A stretch of DNA of 64,000 nt from Flavobacterium sediminilitoris (lineage in GTDB: Bacteria > Bacteroidota > Bacteroidia > Flavobacteriales > Flavobacteriaceae): positions 248,001 to 312,000 of the forward strand of contig NZ_CP090145.1 in the NCBI RefSeq assembly GCF_023008245.1. The letters run 5' to 3'. Positions within the stretch are counted from its first letter, which is position 1. Each line of letters starts with the position of its first letter. Under the pieces are notes generated by a model. That model had not been told where the DNA came from, made no database searches, and saw nothing but the letters and a program-made list of their open reading frames with translations. Shown one piece after another: positions 6,471-17,559 of the stretch. The translations under genes and the position numbers were made by a program.

Positions 6471-9400
6471 ATGAATACCTTATTATATTTTGAATTACAA
6501 TCTTATTTTAAGAAAATAGGATTCTATATAGTAATCGTTTTTTTAATTGGAATAGGAATACTTACTGGTTCTACTTTTTCAATTTCACTTAGCCCTGATA
6601 TCTATAAAAACTCATCATATACAATTGCTTATATGATAGGTTTTCTAAGTCTCTTATCCATACTTTTTACAACTCTTTTAGCTTCACAAATTTTATTTAA
6701 AGAGAAAGAAGCCAACTTTAGTTTGATATTATATGCAACACCTATAACAAAAACAAGTTACTTATGGAATCGTTTTTTTCTAATTTTTGGATTAAGCGTC
6801 TTCTTTCTTATTCTTGTTATATTAGGTTTTGGAATAGGTCAATCGTTAAAATTAAACGAATCTAATTATTCTAATTTCGTTCTATTATTTTATCTTTTAC
6901 CTTTTTTATTGTTTGGCTTTATTAATACTCTATTTTGCAGTGCTGTAATTTGCAGCGTTAGTTGGATAACCCAAAATAAATTAACAACTTACATTTCTGG
7001 TTTGTTCATTTACATCTTATACATGGTAATGTTACTCTTTTCTGGCTCACCTTTAATGGCTAAATCAATGCCACAATCAAAAGAAGCCATGAGAATTTCT
7101 GCTATTTTAGATCCTTTTGGACTTTCTGGCTTCTTTTCGCAAACAAATCATTACTCAATTCTTCAAAAAAATACTGATTTATTATTTCCAACTGATTTAT
7201 TTTTAATAAACAGATTAGGCGTTATTGGAATTTCACTACTCTTTTTACTTATTGCTTTTAAACTATTTTCATTTAGCAACTCTGAAAAGAGAACCAGAAA
7301 AGACACGTTAAAATTAAATGACACTAATACAAATAAAACTATTCCATTAAAACCTATATCCCCAATCTTTAATAAAAGAAACACACTAAAAAAACTGCTG
7401 TCTTTCGTACATTTAGACTTAACATATATCACTAAAGGAATTCCTTTCATTTTAATATGTTTTGGATTGTTATTTAGTGTTTCTATGGAAATCTATGATG
7501 CTATTGAAAAAGGAATTCGTTTACCTCAAAAATATGCATCATCTGGATTAATGGCTAATGCAATTATTGACACATTCCCCCTTCTGGGTTTAATAGTTAT
7601 TCTTTTTTATGCTCATGAAATTATTTGGAGAAGCAGAAATAGTAATTTTCATCTTATTGAAAATACAACTCCTCTAAATGAAACCACAATTTTTCTGTCT
7701 AAATGGCTCTCATTATCAATAATCATAGTGTTTTTAAGCACATTAATGCTTTTATTAGGTGTAACTTTCCAATTCTTGTACACTTATCCATACTTTGATT
7801 GGCAAGCTTATTTAGGTATATATATATTTGTTAGTTTCCCTTTAATTTTAAGTGCTGGACTTATTTGTATCATTCAAAAATGGATTAACAACAAATATAT
7901 TGGACTTACTATTTCATCAGTTTTTATTCTTCTTACTGCAACTCCTGTTGGAAAATCAATTTTAATTCATCCATTACTTCGTTTTCAATTGCCTTTCAAA
8001 GGAATTTATAGTGACATGAATGAATATGGAACTTACTTTTCTGCATTTTGTTGGCGCAATCTATTTGGTTTAGCCATTATACTAATCTTTTTTATACTTA
8101 ACCTAAAAACAAAAAGAATAAAATTAAAGTTTACTTCATTAATTTTATTTCTACTCTTACTTCCAGTAGCTTATATTTCTGGTATAATTTTTACAAATGG
8201 CTATGTATTTGAAAATCCAAAAACGAAACTAGAAGAACAAGCTAACTATGAAAGAAAATATCGCAAATTTGAAAACATTCCTCAACCATCTATTACAGAT
8301 GTCGTTACTAATATAGCTTTATTTCCACTTCAAAATAACTATGAAATAAATGGAACTTATACTCTTCAAAACAAAACTGAACAACCTATTTTTCAAATTT
8401 TGATAAATTTTGAAGAAGGTTTCACTATTAAAAAAGCAACTTTAAATCATAATAACGAAGTATATAATACTACAAAACAATATGAAATATTAAACTTAAA
8501 ACAACCCTTATTACCAAATGAAAAGGCCCATTTTTATTTTATTTTAAATTACCAATGGGTTCCTGTTAATGGACACAAATCCTTTAATTCAATCGTAGAA
8601 AATGGTTCTTTTATGCGAATCAGCAGATATTATCCGCAATTTGGATATTTATCTAAAAACGAAATAGAAAAAGAAGAAGATAGAAAAAAATTCCAGCTTC
8701 AAAATGCTACTACAATTCGTAAACTTGATGAAGCAAAGACTCTAGTTGATGATTTTATTAACTTAAAAATGACTATTTCTACCGAAGGAAATCAAACAGC
8801 TATTGGTGTAGGAGAACTAATCAAACAATGGAAAGATAAGGGACGAAATTATTTTATTTACGAAACAACTTCTCCTATTCCTTTTCGTTTTGCAGTTTCT
8901 TCAGCTAAATATGCCACAAAAACAACAACTCATAATGGTAAAAAAATTGAAATTTATTATCATCCATCACATTATGAAAATGTAGAACATTTACTTAAAA
9001 ATATTGAGTTAACATTAGATTATTGTGAAACCAATTTTAAAGAATATCCTTTTAAAACAATTCGTTTTGCTGAAGTTTCCGCTTTTACTAAAGGTTTTGC
9101 CGCTACAGCTTATCCAGGAAGCACCTTTATGACAGAAGACATAGTATTTCATACTAATATAAAAGCAGACAAACAACAAGATGTTATTAACGAATTAGCC
9201 GGCCACGAATTATCCCATATTTGGTGGGGAAATAATCAAATTAATCCTGACGATAGAGAAGGTTATACGATGCTAACAGAAACATTAGCCATGTATACCG
9301 AATTGATGTTGGTAAAAAAAATGTATGGTAAAAAAAGAGTTTTAGAAAATGTCGACTTACACTTAGGAATCTATCTTGATGAAAGAAGTTTCACTATAGA

Positions 9401-9953
9401 ACAGCCATTATACAAAGTAAATCATTATGATACGCATATTAATTATTCAAAAGGGTTGGTTATTATGTATCAACTTAGCGAAATAATAGGAGAACAAAAA
9501 ATAAATTTAGCGTTACAAAACTTCCTAGAAAAAAACACCTATCCAAACTTAAATCCTATTTCTACAGATTTTATTAATGAATTATATGCAATTACTGACA
9601 AAAATTTGCACCCAAAAATCGATGATTTGTTCAAGAAAATTACTATTTACGATTTTCAAACCAAAGACATAATTGTAAAAGAGAAAAAGGGTCTTTACGA
9701 AGTATCTTTTGAAATTATTGCAAATAAATTTTATGAAGACGGTAAGGGCAATATATCTAAAACATTTTTTAATGACAATGTTGAAATATTCTTTCATTTT
9801 ATAGATGGAAGCGAAAAAACAATACAAACAGCATTATTTAAAAACAATCTTGACTTTAAAATAATTTTAGATAAAAAACCGCTGTATTTATATTTTGATC
9901 CTAATCAAAAGTTTATAAAAAGAACTAATGAAGCTATTCCCATAAAACAATGA
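6471..9953 (+). CDS. ABC permease fused to an M1-family aminopeptidase
   Basis: A 1160-residue protein. The first 570 or so residues hold about twelve membrane helices in two ABC-2-like blocks, separated by a Lys/Pro-rich stretch near residues 270-310. The rest resembles M1 (gluzincin) aminopeptidases, with the zinc site HELSHIWWGN and the third ligand Glu 18 residues after the second His (LTETLAMY). Upstream of it is a region corresponding to the substrate-binding GAMEN-type area (about AYPGSTFMT). By topology the peptidase probably faces the periplasm. It is known in Bacteroidota as an ABC transporter/M1 aminopeptidase fusion. Substrate and direction of transport are unknown; a role in peptide turnover at the inner membrane is inference. 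Confidence 0.9.
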   Translation: MNTLLYFELQSYFKKIGFYIVIVFLIGIGILTGSTFSISLSPDIYKNSSYTIAYMIGFLSLLSILFTTLLASQILFKEKEANFSLILYATPITKTSYLWNRFFLIFGLSVFFLILVILGFGIGQSLKLNESNYSNFVLLFYLLPFLLFGFINTLFCSAVICSVSWITQNKLTTYISGLFIYILYMVMLLFSGSPLMAKSMPQSKEAMRISAILDPFGLSGFFSQTNHYSILQKNTDLLFPTDLFLINRLGVIGISLLFLLIAFKLFSFSNSEKRTRKDTLKLNDTNTNKTIPLKPISPIFNKRNTLKKLLSFVHLDLTYITKGIPFILICFGLLFSVSMEIYDAIEKGIRLPQKYASSGLMANAIIDTFPLLGLIVILFYAHEIIWRSRNSNFHLIENTTPLNETTIFLSKWLSLSIIIVFLSTLMLLLGVTFQFLYTYPYFDWQAYLGIYIFVSFPLILSAGLICIIQKWINNKYIGLTISSVFILLTATPVGKSILIHPLLRFQLPFKGIYSDMNEYGTYFSAFCWRNLFGLAIILIFFILNLKTKRIKLKFTSLILFLLLLPVAYISGIIFTNGYVFENPKTKLEEQANYERKYRKFENIPQPSITDVVTNIALFPLQNNYEINGTYTLQNKTEQPIFQILINFEEGFTIKKATLNHNNEVYNTTKQYEILNLKQPLLPNEKAHFYFILNYQWVPVNGHKSFNSIVENGSFMRISRYYPQFGYLSKNEIEKEEDRKKFQLQNATTIRKLDEAKTLVDDFINLKMTISTEGNQTAIGVGELIKQWKDKGRNYFIYETTSPIPFRFAVSSAKYATKTTTHNGKKIEIYYHPSHYENVEHLLKNIELTLDYCETNFKEYPFKTIRFAEVSAFTKGFAATAYPGSTFMTEDIVFHTNIKADKQQDVINELAGHELSHIWWGNNQINPDDREGYTMLTETLAMYTELMLVKKMYGKKRVLENVDLHLGIYLDERSFTIEQPLYKVNHYDTHINYSKGLVIMYQLSEIIGEQKINLALQNFLEKNTYPNLNPISTDFINELYAITDKNLHPKIDDLFKKITIYDFQTKDIIVKEKKGLYEVSFEIIANKFYEDGKGNISKTFFNDNVEIFFHFIDGSEKTIQTALFKNNLDFKIILDKKPLYLYFDPNQKFIKRTNEAIPIKQ

Positions 9954-11445: not shown

Positions 11446-12849
11446 CTAAACATGTAGTGGTCTATTATCTGTTGCAGCTAATGCTGCTTCTTTAATCGCT
11501 TCTGCAAATGTAGGATGTGCATGACTCATTCTTGAAATATCTTCCGCACTTGCTCTAAACTCCATTGCAGTTACTGCTTCTGCAATTAGGTCTGCACAAC
11601 GAGCGCCTATCATATGAACTCCTAAAACTTCATCTGTCTTAGCATCTGCCAAAATCTTCACAAAACCATCAACATCTCCACCTGCTCTAGCTCTTCCTAA
11701 TGCTTTAAATGGAAAACTTCCGCTTTTATAAGCAACTCCTTCTGTTTTCAATTGCTCTTCTGTTTTACCAACAGCAGCAACCTCTGGCCATGTATAAACC
11801 ACACCTGGAATTAAATTATAATCAATATGAGGTTTTTGACCTGCTAAAATCTCAGCTACCATAACACCTTCTTCTTCTGCCTTATGAGCTAACATTGCTC
11901 CTCTAACTACATCACCTATTGCATAAATATTTGACACATTTGTTTGCAAATGATCATTTACTTCAACAACTCCTCTATCAGAAATTTTAACACCAGCTTT
12001 ATCAGCATTTAATCCATCAGTATAAGGACGACGACCAACAGAAACTAATGAATAATCTCCTTCTAAAGTGATTACTTCTCCTTTTGTATTTTCCGCTTTT
12101 ACTGTTACAACATCTCCATTCCTATCAACAGATTGAACTTTATGAGAAGTATAAAATTTCATTCCTTGTTTTTTCAGCACTTTTGTCAATTCTTTCGATA
12201 AAGCAGCATCCATTCCTGGTATAATTCTATCCATATACTCTACCACAGAAACTTGAGCTCCCAATCTTAAATACACTTGGCCCAACTCAATACCAATAAC
12301 TCCTCCTCCAATAATCACTAAGTGTTTTGGCACTTCTGGCAACTTTAAAGCTTCAGTAGATGTGATTACTCGTTCTTTATCTAATGTAATAAATGGCAAA
12401 GAAGATGGTTTTGAACCTGTTGCTATAATTATATTTTTAGATTCAATTATTTCAGACGCTCCATCATTTTTAGACACTTTCACATGTGTAGCATCTTCAA
12501 ATGAACCAATCCCTTCAAAAACAGTAATATTATTCTTATCCATTAAATATTTGACCCCACCAGAGGTTTGATCAACTACCGCTTGTTTACGAGCAATCAT
12601 TTTTTCCAGATTTACTTTAACCTCACCAGAAACTTCTATTCCGTGATCAGCAAAATGTTGTAATTCTTGATAATGATGTGATGAAGCCAATAATGCTTTA
12701 GAAGGAATACATCCTACATTTAAACATGTACCTCCAAGTGTAGAATATTTTTCAATGATAGCTGTTTTCAACCCTAGTTGAGCGCAACGAATTGCTGAAA
12801 CATATCCTCCTGGACCTGAACCTATAATAACTACGTCAAATGAACTCAT
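11446..12849 (-). CDS. lpdA: dihydrolipoyl dehydrogenase
   Basis: A 467-residue FAD/NAD disulfide oxidoreductase, the E3 subunit that re-oxidises dihydrolipoamide in the 2-oxoacid dehydrogenase complexes and in glycine cleavage. FAD-binding GSGPGG is at residues 11-15, and the redox-active pair Cys42/Cys47 sits in GGTCLNVGCIPSK. The NAD site is GGGVIGIELG (near residue 180). The second FAD motif is YAIGDVVRG. The C-terminal HAHPTFAEAI supplies the catalytic His-Glu pair. Length and motifs are complete. It is monocistronic, with its own promoter and terminator. GcvP, a functional partner system, is encoded at 59-62 kb. Confidence 0.97.
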   Translation of the reverse strand: MSSFDVVIIGSGPGGYVSAIRCAQLGLKTAIIEKYSTLGGTCLNVGCIPSKALLASSHHYQELQHFADHGIEVSGEVKVNLEKMIARKQAVVDQTSGGVKYLMDKNNITVFEGIGSFEDATHVKVSKNDGASEIIESKNIIIATGSKPSSLPFITLDKERVITSTEALKLPEVPKHLVIIGGGVIGIELGQVYLRLGAQVSVVEYMDRIIPGMDAALSKELTKVLKKQGMKFYTSHKVQSVDRNGDVVTVKAENTKGEVITLEGDYSLVSVGRRPYTDGLNADKAGVKISDRGVVEVNDHLQTNVSNIYAIGDVVRGAMLAHKAEEEGVMVAEILAGQKPHIDYNLIPGVVYTWPEVAAVGKTEEQLKTEGVAYKSGSFPFKALGRARAGGDVDGFVKILADAKTDEVLGVHMIGARCADLIAEAVTAMEFRASAEDISRMSHAHPTFAEAIKEAALAATDNRPLHV

Positions 12850-12900: not shown

Positions 12901-12986
12901 AGGAATTAAGTTTACACGACTTTAGTTTATTTTGAAAATATAACACTTTTTCTTATTCAAATAATTCCTTACAAAGAACAAAAAAA

Positions 12987-13009
12987 TAGCCTTGAAATAA
13001 TCAAGGCTA
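12987..13009 (-). terminator. terminator of cysteine-rich peptide copy 1
   Basis: TAGCCTTGA and TCAAGGCTA form a 9-bp stem with a 5-base loop. A T-run follows on the minus strand, 23 bases past the peptide stop codon. Confidence 0.85.
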
Positions 13010-13032
13010 CTTTTAAAATTTATTTCTAGAAA

Positions 13033-13224
13033 TTACATTTCTTCTTGACAAGTATACACTTGAGCACATGCAAAATAAATTCTACAATAATCTGGACCTG
13101 TTACAGAACCTCTGCAATCACATCCACATTTTGAAAAATCCAATTTAGCTTGTCCTTTAATTTGCTTCATGTTTTCTCTTGATAATACTTCTATTCCTGA
13201 AATGTTCAAAAATTTAGCTTTCAT
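13033..13224 (-). CDS. six-cysteine leader peptide, copy 1
   Basis: A 63-residue peptide. Residues 1-24 form a leader (LNISGIEVLSRENMKQIKG) of the Bacteroidota natural-product type. The core has the pattern CGCxCxGSVTGPxYCx5CxQVYTC with six cysteines. Two neighbouring genes encode the same core pattern, and a fourth is broken. In this copy the usual Gly-Gly before the core has become Gly-Gln (KGQA), so cleavage by a double-glycine protease is doubtful. It has its own promoter and terminator. No modifying enzyme or exporter is adjacent. It could be a bacteriocin, a signal or a disulfide-stabilised secreted peptide; the function is unknown. Confidence 0.85.
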   Translation of the reverse strand: MKAKFLNISGIEVLSRENMKQIKGQAKLDFSKCGCDCRGSVTGPDYCRIYFACAQVYTCQEEM

Positions 13225-13255
13225 AATTTAGTTTGTTTTTGTGTTAAAATTCTAT

Positions 13256-13286
13256 CAAATATAGAAAAAAATAATAACCAAACAAA
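13256..13286 (-). promoter_or_regulatory. promoter of cysteine-rich peptide copy 1
   Basis: On the minus strand TTTG (13283-13286) precedes TATATTTG (13256-13263) by 19 bases, a full Bacteroidota promoter, 31 bases upstream of the start codon. Copy 3 carries the same TATATTTG, while copy 2 and the broken copy have the weaker TATATTAG at the equivalent place. Confidence 0.7.
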
Positions 13287-13335
13287 TTAAATATTCATAT
13301 TTTCCCTTTTAATATGTAAAAAATACTTTACAAAA

Positions 13336-13363
13336 AAACCATCTAATTTAAATTAGATGGTTT
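13336..13363 (-). terminator. terminator of cysteine-rich peptide copy 2
   Basis: AAACCATCTAATTT and its exact complement form a 14-bp palindrome that is followed by T residues on the minus strand, 23 bases past the stop of copy 2. Confidence 0.85.
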
Positions 13364-13386
13364 CATACAAAACATTCGTTTGTTAA

Positions 13387-13590
13387 TTACATTTCTTGTT
13401 CGTCTTTACATGTATAAACTTGAGGACAACCAATATATTGACTACAATAAAATGGTCCAGTTACAGAACCTGCGCAATCACATCCACATTTTGATAAATC
13501 TACAGGACCAGAAATCCCTCCTAAAATTTGTTTTTGATTTTTTCTAGTCAATTTAGTAATTCCTGAAATACTTAATAATCTGCTTTTCAT
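13387..13590 (-). CDS. six-cysteine leader peptide, copy 2
   Basis: A 67-residue paralogue of the neighbouring peptides. The leader ends in an intact LGG (residues 23-25), followed by ISGPVDLSK and the core CGCDCAGSVTGPFYC, then CPQVYTC. All six cysteines are kept and the C-terminus is acidic (KDEQEM). An intact double glycine suggests processing by a C39-type peptidase-transporter, but none is encoded nearby. Upstream bases (ATTTTAACACAAAAACAAAC) are nearly the same as in copy 1. Function unknown; probably a secreted or exported peptide. Confidence 0.85.
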   Translation of the reverse strand: MKSRLLSISGITKLTRKNQKQILGGISGPVDLSKCGCDCAGSVTGPFYCSQYIGCPQVYTCKDEQEM

Positions 13591-13698
13591 AATTTTGTTT
13601 GTTTTTGTGTTAAAATAACGTCTAATATAAAAATTTTAATACACATAATTATTATTTATTTAAAAAATAAAACAATTTCAAAATTAATCTAAGGACAT

Positions 13699-13890
13699 TT
13701 ACTCGTTACATGTATAAACTTGCGGACAATATATATGTCTACGACAGTAAAAAGGTCCTGTTACTGATCCACTACAAGAACATCCACATTTTGACAAGTC
13801 TACAGGTTCCAAAATGCCTCCAAAAATTTGTTTTTGATTTTCCCTAGTTAGAACTTTAATTTCTGAGATACTTAATAATTTTGATTTCAT
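13699..13890 (-). CDS. six-cysteine leader peptide, copy 3
   Basis: A 63-residue paralogue. The start at 13890 (MKSKLLSISE) was chosen because it aligns with copies 1 and 2; a longer reading from 13959 would run through the promoter. The leader ends FGG (residues 23-25). The core has six cysteines (CGCSCSGSVTGPFYC, CPQVYTC) and ends two residues after the last Cys. A TATATTTG promoter element lies 30 bases upstream. Role unknown, as for its siblings. Confidence 0.85.
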   Translation of the reverse strand: MKSKLLSISEIKVLTRENQKQIFGGILEPVDLSKCGCSCSGSVTGPFYCRRHIYCPQVYTCNE

Positions 13891-13919
13891 AATTTTATCT
13901 ATTTGTGTTAAAATATTAT

Positions 13920-13927
13920 CAAATATA
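13920..13927 (-). promoter_or_regulatory. -7 element of peptide copy 3
   Basis: TATATTTG on the minus strand, 30 bases upstream of the start codon, in the same context as in copy 1 (a TAATAACC complement follows upstream in both). Confidence 0.55.
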
Positions 13928-14078
13928 AAAAATAATAACCAAATTAAACTAAAAAACACTTGTAAAACATTTTCACAAGTGTTTAATTAATTATTTTTAT
14001 ATAATAATCTGTATTGAATATTTAGGACAGATCAATTACCTAAATATATTATATAATAAACAATACAATAAATTTATC

Positions 14079-14263
14079 TTAACAAGTATATACTTGAGGA
14101 CATGCAAAGTATTTACTACAATAAAAAGGCCTGTTACTAATCCACTACAAGAACATCCACATTTTGACAAATTTATAGAATCAGAAATTCTAGCAAAAAT
14201 TTGTTTTTAGTTTTCTCTAGTTAAAACTTTAATTTCTGAAATGTTTAGTAATTTACTTTTCAT
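14079..14263 (-). pseudogene. broken fourth copy of the six-cysteine leader peptide
   Basis: From ATG 14263 the reading gives MKSKLLNISEIKVLTREN and then a TAA where the siblings have a CAA Gln codon. The reading resumes with KQIFARISD, so the Gly-Gly site has become Ala-Arg. After VTG one base is missing compared with the siblings, so the last three cysteines (YC, AC, TC) are only restored in another frame that ends at TAA 14079-14081. Three separate lesions (nonsense, loss of the cleavage site, frameshift) show that this copy is dead. Confidence 0.88.
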
Positions 14264-14305: not shown

Positions 14306-14770
14306 TTATTTATTTAGTCTAAATGATGTTGTATTTTTAACTTCACTAATCATAAACGTACTATGAGTACTTCCAATGTGCTGAATAGTTGTTAACTTGG
14401 TAACCATAAATTCCCGATATGCTTCCATATCTTTTACAAAGATTTTCAAAATATAGTCATAATCTCCACTTACATGAAAACATTCTAATACCTCATCTAA
14501 TTTAACAACCTCTTTTTCAAATTGCGAAATAAGATCTATATTATGCTGTGTTAATCTCACATGACAAAAAACAACAAAGTTTTTTTCTATCTTTGCTTTA
14601 TCTAAAACAGCAACATATTTACTTATAACCTTCTCACGTTCTAATTTTTTAATTCTTTCATAGACCGCTGTTACAGACAGATTCAATTTTAAAGACAATT
14701 CTTTTGTTGTCTTTTTTGTATCTTCTTGTAATAATTCTAATAATTTCTCATCAATTTTATCTAACTTCAT
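14306..14770 (-). CDS. Lrp/AsnC family transcriptional regulator
   Basis: A 154-residue regulator with an N-terminal winged HTH (DKIDEKLLELLQEDTKKTTKELSLKLNLS, about residues 3-50) and a C-terminal ligand-sensing RAM domain (about 65-145, with VSGDYDYILKI). It is divergent from a methionine gamma-lyase-like gene, 149 bases apart, so it probably controls that gene in response to an amino acid. That link is inference from position. Its own -7 element lies 17 bases before the start codon, so its leader is very short. Confidence 0.93.
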   Translation of the reverse strand: MKLDKIDEKLLELLQEDTKKTTKELSLKLNLSVTAVYERIKKLEREKVISKYVAVLDKAKIEKNFVVFCHVRLTQHNIDLISQFEKEVVKLDEVLECFHVSGDYDYILKIFVKDMEAYREFMVTKLTTIQHIGSTHSTFMISEVKNTTSFRLNK

Positions 14771-16179: not shown

Positions 16180-16203
16180 TTACCTTTGAAAGAAAGACTA
16201 AAA

Positions 16204-17559
16204 ATGAAAAAATCCCTTTTAATTTTAACTTTATTCTATTTTCTTTTAGGATTTACACAAACCGACTCTAGAATTTACGACATCATCAACCAAATATCAT
16301 CTGAAAGAATACAAAAAGACATTACAACATTAACAAATTTTGGCACAAGAAACACATTTAGCGATACTATCTCTAAAACAAGAGGAATTGGAGCAGCTAG
16401 AAGATGGATTAAATCTGAATTTGAAACAATCTCAAAAGAATGCAAAAATTGCTTAGACGTATTTTATCAAAAAGATTTTGTAACAACTAATGATGGAGAA
16501 CGCGTTCCAAAAGATACTTGGATTGTAAATGTAGTTGCGATACAAAAAGGAACAAAATACCCAAATCGATATATTATAATGAGTGGTGACATTGATAGTC
16601 GAAATTCAGACACAATGGACTTTACTACTGACGCTCCTGGTGCAAATGACAATGCCTCTGGAATGGCTGGAACAATTGAAGCTGCACGAGTTTTATCTAA
16701 ACATAAATTTGAAAACAGTATTATTTACGTAGGTCTTTCTGGAGAAGAACAAGGACTATTTGGAGGAAAAGGGCTAGCTAATTATGCGAAAAATAAAAAC
16801 TGGGAAATTATAGGCGTTTTAAATAATGATATGATTGGTAATATTGAAGGAATTGATGGAGTAATTGACAATAGAACTTTTAGAATATTTTCAGAACCAA
16901 CATCCACAACTGAAACCGAAAAAGAACGTAATATGAGACGCTTTTATGGAGGTGAAGTTGACGGTATTTCTAGACAATTAGCTCGATATATTGAAAGAAC
17001 AACTAAAACTTATATGCCCGAAATGAACCCAATGATGATATATCGATTAGATCGATTTGGAAGAGGTGGTCATCACAGACCTTTTAATGATTTAGGTTTT
17101 GCAGGTATTCGGATAATCGAAGCACATGAAAATTATAATCGTCAACATCAAAATATCAGAGAAGAAAACGGAATAAAATATGGAGATGTTTTAGAAGGTG
17201 TTAATTTTGAATATGTAAAAAAACTAACTGCTGTGAATGCTATTAATTTAGCAGCTCTTGCTTGGTCTCCTCCTGCTCCAAAAAATGTTTTAATTGGTGG
17301 AATTGTAAAACCAAATGTAAAACTACGTTGGGAAAAAAATTCAGACACTAGTATATTAGGCTACAAAATATATTGGAGATTAACAACTTCTCCACAATGG
17401 GAATTTAGCCGATTTGTTGGCAATATTGATAATTTCGAATTAGAAGGTATTGTTATTGATAATTATTTTTTTGGAGTATCAACAGTAGGAAAAAATGGTC
17501 ACGAAAGCCCCATAGTCTTCCCTAATGATATTATCAAAGAGACATTTAGAAAGAGATAA
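16204..17559 (+). CDS. secreted M28 family metallopeptidase
   Basis: A 451-residue protein. The start was placed at ATG 16204, which gives a clean signal peptide (MKKSLLILTLFYFLLGFTQ). The M28 core shows GANDNASG with bridging Asp149, the catalytic Glu pair at 181-182 (GEEQG) and NNDMIG with Asp209. At the first zinc position, where most M28 enzymes have His (AHYDS), this one has Asp129 (GDIDSR). The last 90 residues look like a fibronectin-III-type domain (VKLRWEKNSDTSILGYKIYW). It probably acts in the periplasm or outside the cell. No sorting domain is obvious. Substrate unknown. Confidence 0.88.
   Translation: MKKSLLILTLFYFLLGFTQTDSRIYDIINQISSERIQKDITTLTNFGTRNTFSDTISKTRGIGAARRWIKSEFETISKECKNCLDVFYQKDFVTTNDGERVPKDTWIVNVVAIQKGTKYPNRYIIMSGDIDSRNSDTMDFTTDAPGANDNASGMAGTIEAARVLSKHKFENSIIYVGLSGEEQGLFGGKGLANYAKNKNWEIIGVLNNDMIGNIEGIDGVIDNRTFRIFSEPTSTTETEKERNMRRFYGGEVDGISRQLARYIERTTKTYMPEMNPMMIYRLDRFGRGGHHRPFNDLGFAGIRIIEAHENYNRQHQNIREENGIKYGDVLEGVNFEYVKKLTAVNAINLAALAWSPPAPKNVLIGGIVKPNVKLRWEKNSDTSILGYKIYWRLTTSPQWEFSRFVGNIDNFELEGIVIDNYFFGVSTVGKNGHESPIVFPNDIIKETFRKR

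Follow-up and report, generated by a model that had tools for sequence, protein, structure and literature searches.

The 64,000-nucleotide window of the Flavobacterium sediminilitoris chromosome contains, all on the minus strand, three short open genes (A, B and C) and a degenerate fourth copy (D), which lie as direct repeats spaced 300-374 nt apart between two housekeeping-type neighbours:

11446-12849, minus strand: lpdA (pyridine nucleotide-disulfide oxidoreductase), neighbour in Flavobacterium; context only
12982-13014, minus strand: terminator-like hairpin 3' of gene A, before lpdA, from the terminator scan; -17.8 kcal/mol, z -6.6
13033-13224, minus strand: gene A, 63-aa precursor with a leader ending in KGQ, not GG, and a six-cysteine core; profile E 8.1e-31
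13222-13286, minus strand: upstream region of gene A, with a promoter-like match and a 28-nt block common to gene B
13256-13286, minus strand: promoter-like match TTTG-N19-TATATTTG, one exact match to the flavobacterial motif before gene A
13335-13364, minus strand: hairpin followed by a T-run between B and A, absent from the terminator scan; -14.6 kcal/mol (56-nt stretch), z -4.3
13387-13590, minus strand: gene B, 67-aa precursor with a GG leader and a six-cysteine core; profile E 4.0e-36
13699-13890, minus strand: gene C, 63-aa precursor with a GG leader and a six-cysteine core; profile E 1.6e-33
13954-13984, minus strand: terminator-like hairpin between copy D and gene C, from the terminator scan; -13.8 kcal/mol, z -4.1
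about 14073-14263, minus strand: copy D, a pseudogene whose leader contains an in-frame stop and whose core is frameshifted; two separate matches
14306-14770, minus strand: gene for an Lrp/AsnC-type regulator, usual neighbour in Flavobacterium; context only

This confirms the arrangement described in an earlier note on the same DNA, three intact genes and one dead copy flanked by lpdA and an lrp-type gene, and the intact cores of A, B and C all match the core motif given there. The leader is 25 amino acids long in each of the three; a GTG farther upstream lengthens the mechanical open reading frame of gene C. The 28-nt block, which ends in the ATG, differs by one base between A and B (chance expectation 0), and the sequence at the same site in C and D differs from it. 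The flavobacterial promoter motif occurs 12 times in the window against 8.4 expected, which is no excess over chance. Because a hairpin with a T-run follows gene A and others separate B from A and D from C, each of the three intact genes is probably its own transcription unit.

A protein database search with gene B recovered 53 proteins at E≤0.001 (E 8.9e-39 to 2.5e-10), and scanning species genomes yielded 21 loci, which belong to Tenacibaculum, Kordia, Dokdonia, Chryseobacterium and Pedobacter; the names of matched database proteins add Flavobacterium and Aquimarina. The family is present in 15 of 398 Flavobacterium genomes (E≤1e-8) and in 21 of 116 genomes of the genus of G299 (E≤1e-6). When genomes were drawn across the taxonomic family, 16 of 299 matched the profile (E≤0.001), strongly in the F. 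sediminilitoris genome and G179 only, the other 14 matches being weak (best 3.6e-6) and mainly over the leader. Copy number per genome ranges from one to four; L096 (genome G809) and L036 each hold four open copies of the six-cysteine peptide within about 1 kb. An alignment of 53 peptides, taken from the window and the fetched loci, has 14 invariant columns downstream from and including the first core cysteine (six Cys, three Gly, Val, Thr, Pro, Tyr and Gln), and two further core columns vary once. The dN/dS ratio is 0.19 in the core and 0.44 in the leader (Nei-Gojobori, 20 disjoint pairs), both figures being approximate, as several of the pairs join distant sequences from different genera. 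Purifying selection acts on the core, and by this selection together with the database E-values the array and its relatives are a real family, beyond chance. The earlier note had made its reading depend on purifying selection across species, and on that count it survives; its picture of a conserved core behind a drifting leader is upheld over all 53 peptides.

That note had also failed to recognise the core, and neither NCBIfam nor Pfam gives a named family above cut-off: membership of A, B and C was rejected, all matches falling short, including the weak leader likeness of gene A to NF047798 leader_Chryseo (17.8 bits against a curated cut-off of 23.5) and to TIGR04149 GG_sam_targ_CFB (16.2 bits against 25), models that gene C does not match at all. 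The AlphaFold model of the precursor is of low confidence (pLDDT 63.8). The leader ends in GG in 38 of the 53 peptides, with the first glycine invariant in 53/53 and the second replaced in the remaining 15, gene A included (Q in 6, S in 5, K in 2, A in 1, E in 1). Its consensus, KKniLNIkGAtvLSKExQKqInGG, can be set beside that of nine other peptides of the F. sediminilitoris genome, KKSILnLkGtQeLSkKEQKtInGG; judged by these sequences, it is a leader of the Bacteroidota double-glycine type, common to ten other cysteine-rich peptides of the same genome, which supports the earlier call of a leader peptide. The 15 leaders that lack a final GG count against C39 cleavage, where this is unusual.

Having defined the family, we compared its genomic surroundings, taking up to 10 kb on each side of the peptide gene at the 21 loci. 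lpdA adjoins the peptide gene in 15/15 Flavobacterium carriers and an lrp-type gene lies within the short flanks in 12/15 (none in L093, L100 and L102); all nine Tenacibaculum loci share neighbours read as dnaJ and grpE, and seven of eight Kordia loci share a different set. A conserved local maturation gene was considered and rejected: open reading frames of at least 80 aa from the 21 loci and the window region were clustered, and among the 30 most recurrent clusters the neighbours, read by eye, are housekeeping genes. At the 21 loci tblastn found no relative of the genome's own PCATs, HlyD, VKOR fusion, LanB parts or one radical SAM; its own thioredoxin protein gave weak thioredoxin-like matches in L031 and L032 alone, about 7 kb from the peptide genes. 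Within a genus, then, the position of the peptide gene is stable, and at all sites examined the gene is an orphan. In nine Tenacibaculum loci (L017, L018, L020, L021, L025, L029, L030, L033 and L035) a block AAGTCCCTC/AAGTCCCTT stands directly before the start codon, and 7 of 17 Kordia copies (in L028, L031, L032 and L036) have another common block, GAAAAACCT...GAGTA.GGA; both are possible regulatory leaders.

Around the array itself, the earlier statement that no peptidase, transporter or modifying enzyme is near needs narrowing. No relative of the genome's own hub C39 exporter, HlyD, VKOR fusion, LanB or radical SAM lies near the array, and to that extent it stands; an M28-type peptidase gene (16186-17559) and a gene for a 1160-aa protein that has many hydrophobic segments and ends in an M1 peptidase domain (6471-9953) do lie within a few kilobases, neither of them a C39 leader peptidase. 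The 6471-9953 protein resembles a fusion of a transporter permease with a peptidase. Distant ABC-ATPase-like matches are present at 5.7 and 51 kb, and the pattern used for GG-leader peptides finds no others in the window.

The machinery lies elsewhere in the genome. There are four C39 matches, comprising two full-length PCATs, the C39 ABC exporters that a PCAT substrate calls for, and two C39-like domains. One PCAT lies 0.37 Mb from the array in a hub (L042; G000:C1:622001-642000) together with HlyD, a thioredoxin protein, a 511-aa C39-like/VKOR/thioredoxin fusion, split LanB genes, an AraC/TPR regulator and five different GG-leader cysteine-rich peptides; its frame has no ATG before the C39 domain, and a non-ATG start was assumed. 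Five more GG-leader cysteine peptides lie at 1.51, 1.56 and 3.30 Mb. The second PCAT, at 2.68 Mb, stands beside two radical SAM genes and a gene for an outer-membrane beta-barrel protein (L043:5466-13073), with no GG precursor among the genes listed there, and at L044:8102-11770 two GG-leader peptides immediately precede the genes for a LodA-type lysine oxidase and an FAD-dependent protein. The genome's second VKOR fusion lies in L048; in L086 (G000:C1:3891000-3903000) it is beside two thioredoxin-like genes, with no GG peptide by the pattern used. Processing in trans, as the earlier note proposed, is supported by the PCAT and HlyD encoded away from the array, and export by the same route is probable.

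Since the six-cysteine precursors are not beside the VKOR or PCAT genes, their pairing rests on leader type and co-occurrence. VKOR is present above cut-off in 15/15 Flavobacterium carriers against 113/383 non-carriers (Fisher 2e-8, relatedness ignored) and, in the genus of G299, in 20/21 carriers against 13/95 others (Fisher 7e-13, relatedness ignored). It was found in 19/20 carrier genomes reached through the loci (the exception being G300) and, in the family draw, in 14 of the 16 profile-matching genomes against 29 of the other 283; these sets overlap in part (G179 repeats genome G306) and the counts are uncorrected for kinship. A full-length PCAT-type C39 is present in 20/20 carriers reached through the loci and also in G127, a Flavobacterium non-carrier without VKOR, so PCAT alone does not discriminate.

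We then examined the fusion. Its cysteines C185, C193, C261, C264, C371 and C374 are invariant in 55 sequences and make up a loop pair, a membrane CxxC and a thioredoxin CxxC, the features of a VKOR/thioredoxin oxidase. In 20 of 55 members the N-terminal domain aligns with the later part of Pfam C39 at E≤0.001; the hub fusion, at 21.7 bits, falls just under the cut-off of 22, its match starting at position 46, and the second fusion of the genome scores 22.5 bits. A conserved motif is present in 39 of 41 fusion frames (read stop to stop), and 33 of these 39 have no cysteine in the 40 residues before it; set by eye beside PCAT domains, the fusions (43 rows, 9 of them without the N-terminal domain) have no conserved histidine at the C39 site. 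On this alignment evidence the domain is C39-like without conserved catalytic residues. The fusion profile has no match among solved structures at E≤0.01. A hydropathy profile, read by eye, gives six membrane segments and suggests that the C39-like domain, the VKOR cysteines and the thioredoxin are all on one side of the membrane; charge distribution did not decide which. Were the domains periplasmic, leader docking before PCAT cleavage would be hard to explain; were they cytosolic, the oxidase would be unusual.

At 30 VKOR loci of carrier genomes, which are 30 of 31 distinct carrier matches and were chosen regardless of neighbours, there are 82 GG-leader peptides, without exception encoded on the same strand as the fusion, a density of 1.98 per 10 kb against 0.06 per 10 kb in a control (3 in 475,576 bases) that combined the 21 family loci with the window and excluded the six-cysteine family itself. 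At least one such peptide occurs at 22 of the 30 loci, within 1.5 kb at 19, and none at 8; a PCAT is also present at 12. An even number of cysteines, found in 73 of the 82, speaks for paired cysteines. The fusion may be a leader-guided disulfide oxidase, whose dead C39 domain docks GG leaders and which oxidises many scattered cysteine-rich precursors before or during PCAT export, and as part of the same reading it may be a maturation hub common to orphan peptides in Bacteroidota; we advance both parts tentatively, as possibilities that we do not favour outright. C39-like domains of the HlyB type have the C39 fold without catalytic residues and dock substrate. The fusion's domain is like them in lacking those residues and plausibly docks the leader; it differs in being joined to VKOR and thioredoxin, whereas the HlyB-type domain is joined to an ABC transporter. 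Among the open-access literature matches listed, no title or abstract describes C39-like/VKOR fusions with such peptides, and a VKOR phylogeny (PMC4555120) contains neither 'Bacteroidetes' nor 'C39'.

We therefore prefer, with a probability of roughly 0.6, the reading that A, B and C are orphan precursors of an exported three-disulfide peptide that is cut, exported and oxidised in trans and acts outside the cell, most likely as an antagonist. The three genes would be transcribed separately, as orphan precursors of one exported peptide family. Their N-terminal ~25 residues would serve as a double-glycine leader, read by the hub PCAT with its HlyD partner; on its removal a core of about 38-42 residues would be exported, the six invariant cysteines being joined into three disulfides by the membrane VKOR/thioredoxin oxidase, whose N-terminal domain would plausibly dock the leader. 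We infer these steps from the leader type and the machinery, and likewise that the mature peptide would act on a conserved extracellular target, most likely antagonising related bacteria. The antagonist role is a conjecture based on precedent: arms-race toxins are not typically under such strong purifying selection, which counts against it, and the nearly frozen core would also fit a signal or a metal-binding peptide.

A cell-to-cell signal, in which a conserved receptor would sense the core as a pheromone, draws on the same selection and invariant columns and on the fixed genomic place of the gene in Tenacibaculum, Kordia and Flavobacterium; no receptor or two-component gene was recognised by eye among the 30 most recurrent neighbour clusters listed, although one could lie elsewhere, and we regard this alternative as unlikely. 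Slightly less likely again is an exported chelator or small metal protein, in which CGCxC and the other three cysteines would bind zinc, copper or iron. The CGCxC spacing is invariant, and the sole matches to solved structures, with a best E of 0.003, are to zinc fingers of myelin transcription factor 1 and a relative; these we set aside as weak and short, perhaps a chance similarity of cysteine-rich sequences, and the leader type and VKOR co-occurrence favour an oxidised exported peptide. Least probable is a lanthipeptide or radical-SAM thioether peptide, its core modified in trans before export: the F. sediminilitoris genome does hold three LanB and six SPASM matches (two beside the second PCAT), but among carriers, the only genomes counted here, LanB (Lant_dehydr_N), which a class I lanthipeptide would need alongside its precursor, is present in 27/35 and missing in 8, the SPASM radical SAM needed for a SPASM-modified peptide is present in 21/35 above cut-off and 25/35 at E≤0.001 (absent from 14 and 10), and the core conserves roughly three Ser/Thr beside its six invariant cysteines, not enough for six lanthionines. 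Of the partners whose co-occurrence the earlier note had proposed to follow, C39 is constant in the 20 carriers reached through the loci and LanB and radical SAM are patchy among the 35, and of its two linkages, disulfide or thioether, the disulfide fits better, with a VKOR/thioredoxin fusion in nearly every carrier.

For the preferred disulfide peptide, the closest precedent is the bacteroidetocins, class IIf bacteriocins that, in the portion of PMC6671954 drawn on here, are described as disulfide-bonded and as killing Bacteroidales, with a GG leader, C39 exporter and thiol oxidase route and a gene that adjoins a PCAT, a transmembrane protein and a thiol oxidoreductase; a GG motif with PCAT in Bacteroidales also appears in the part of PMC10352776 used here. 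We rejected identity with them on leader length, cysteine number and gene neighbours. The bacteroidetocin leader has 15-16 aa and ends in GG, against about 25 aa, with GG in only part of the family, here; bacteroidetocins A and B have four cysteines against six; their gene adjoins a PCAT, whereas the six-cysteine precursors have no relative of the F. sediminilitoris PCATs, HlyD or VKOR fusion beside them, at the 21 loci or in the window; and their oxidase is a thiol oxidoreductase, in place of a C39-like/VKOR/thioredoxin fusion associated by co-occurrence. The simplest reading, by analogy, is a bacteroidetocin-like maturation route of GG leader, C39 exporter and thiol oxidase, with dispersed precursors and a different oxidase. 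In the main text of a paper on Flavobacteriaceae natural products (PMC10734526), many RiPP clusters are reported and the words 'disulfide', 'bacteriocin' and 'cysteine' are absent.

Orphan precursors of this kind are easily missed by cluster-based genome mining, there being no cluster marker beside them. Many more exported disulfide peptides of Bacteroidota may be findable from the leader alone, provided that dispersed genes are indeed served by a leader-docking oxidase and an exporter. The almost frozen six-cysteine core points to a conserved extracellular target, one that is open to direct search.
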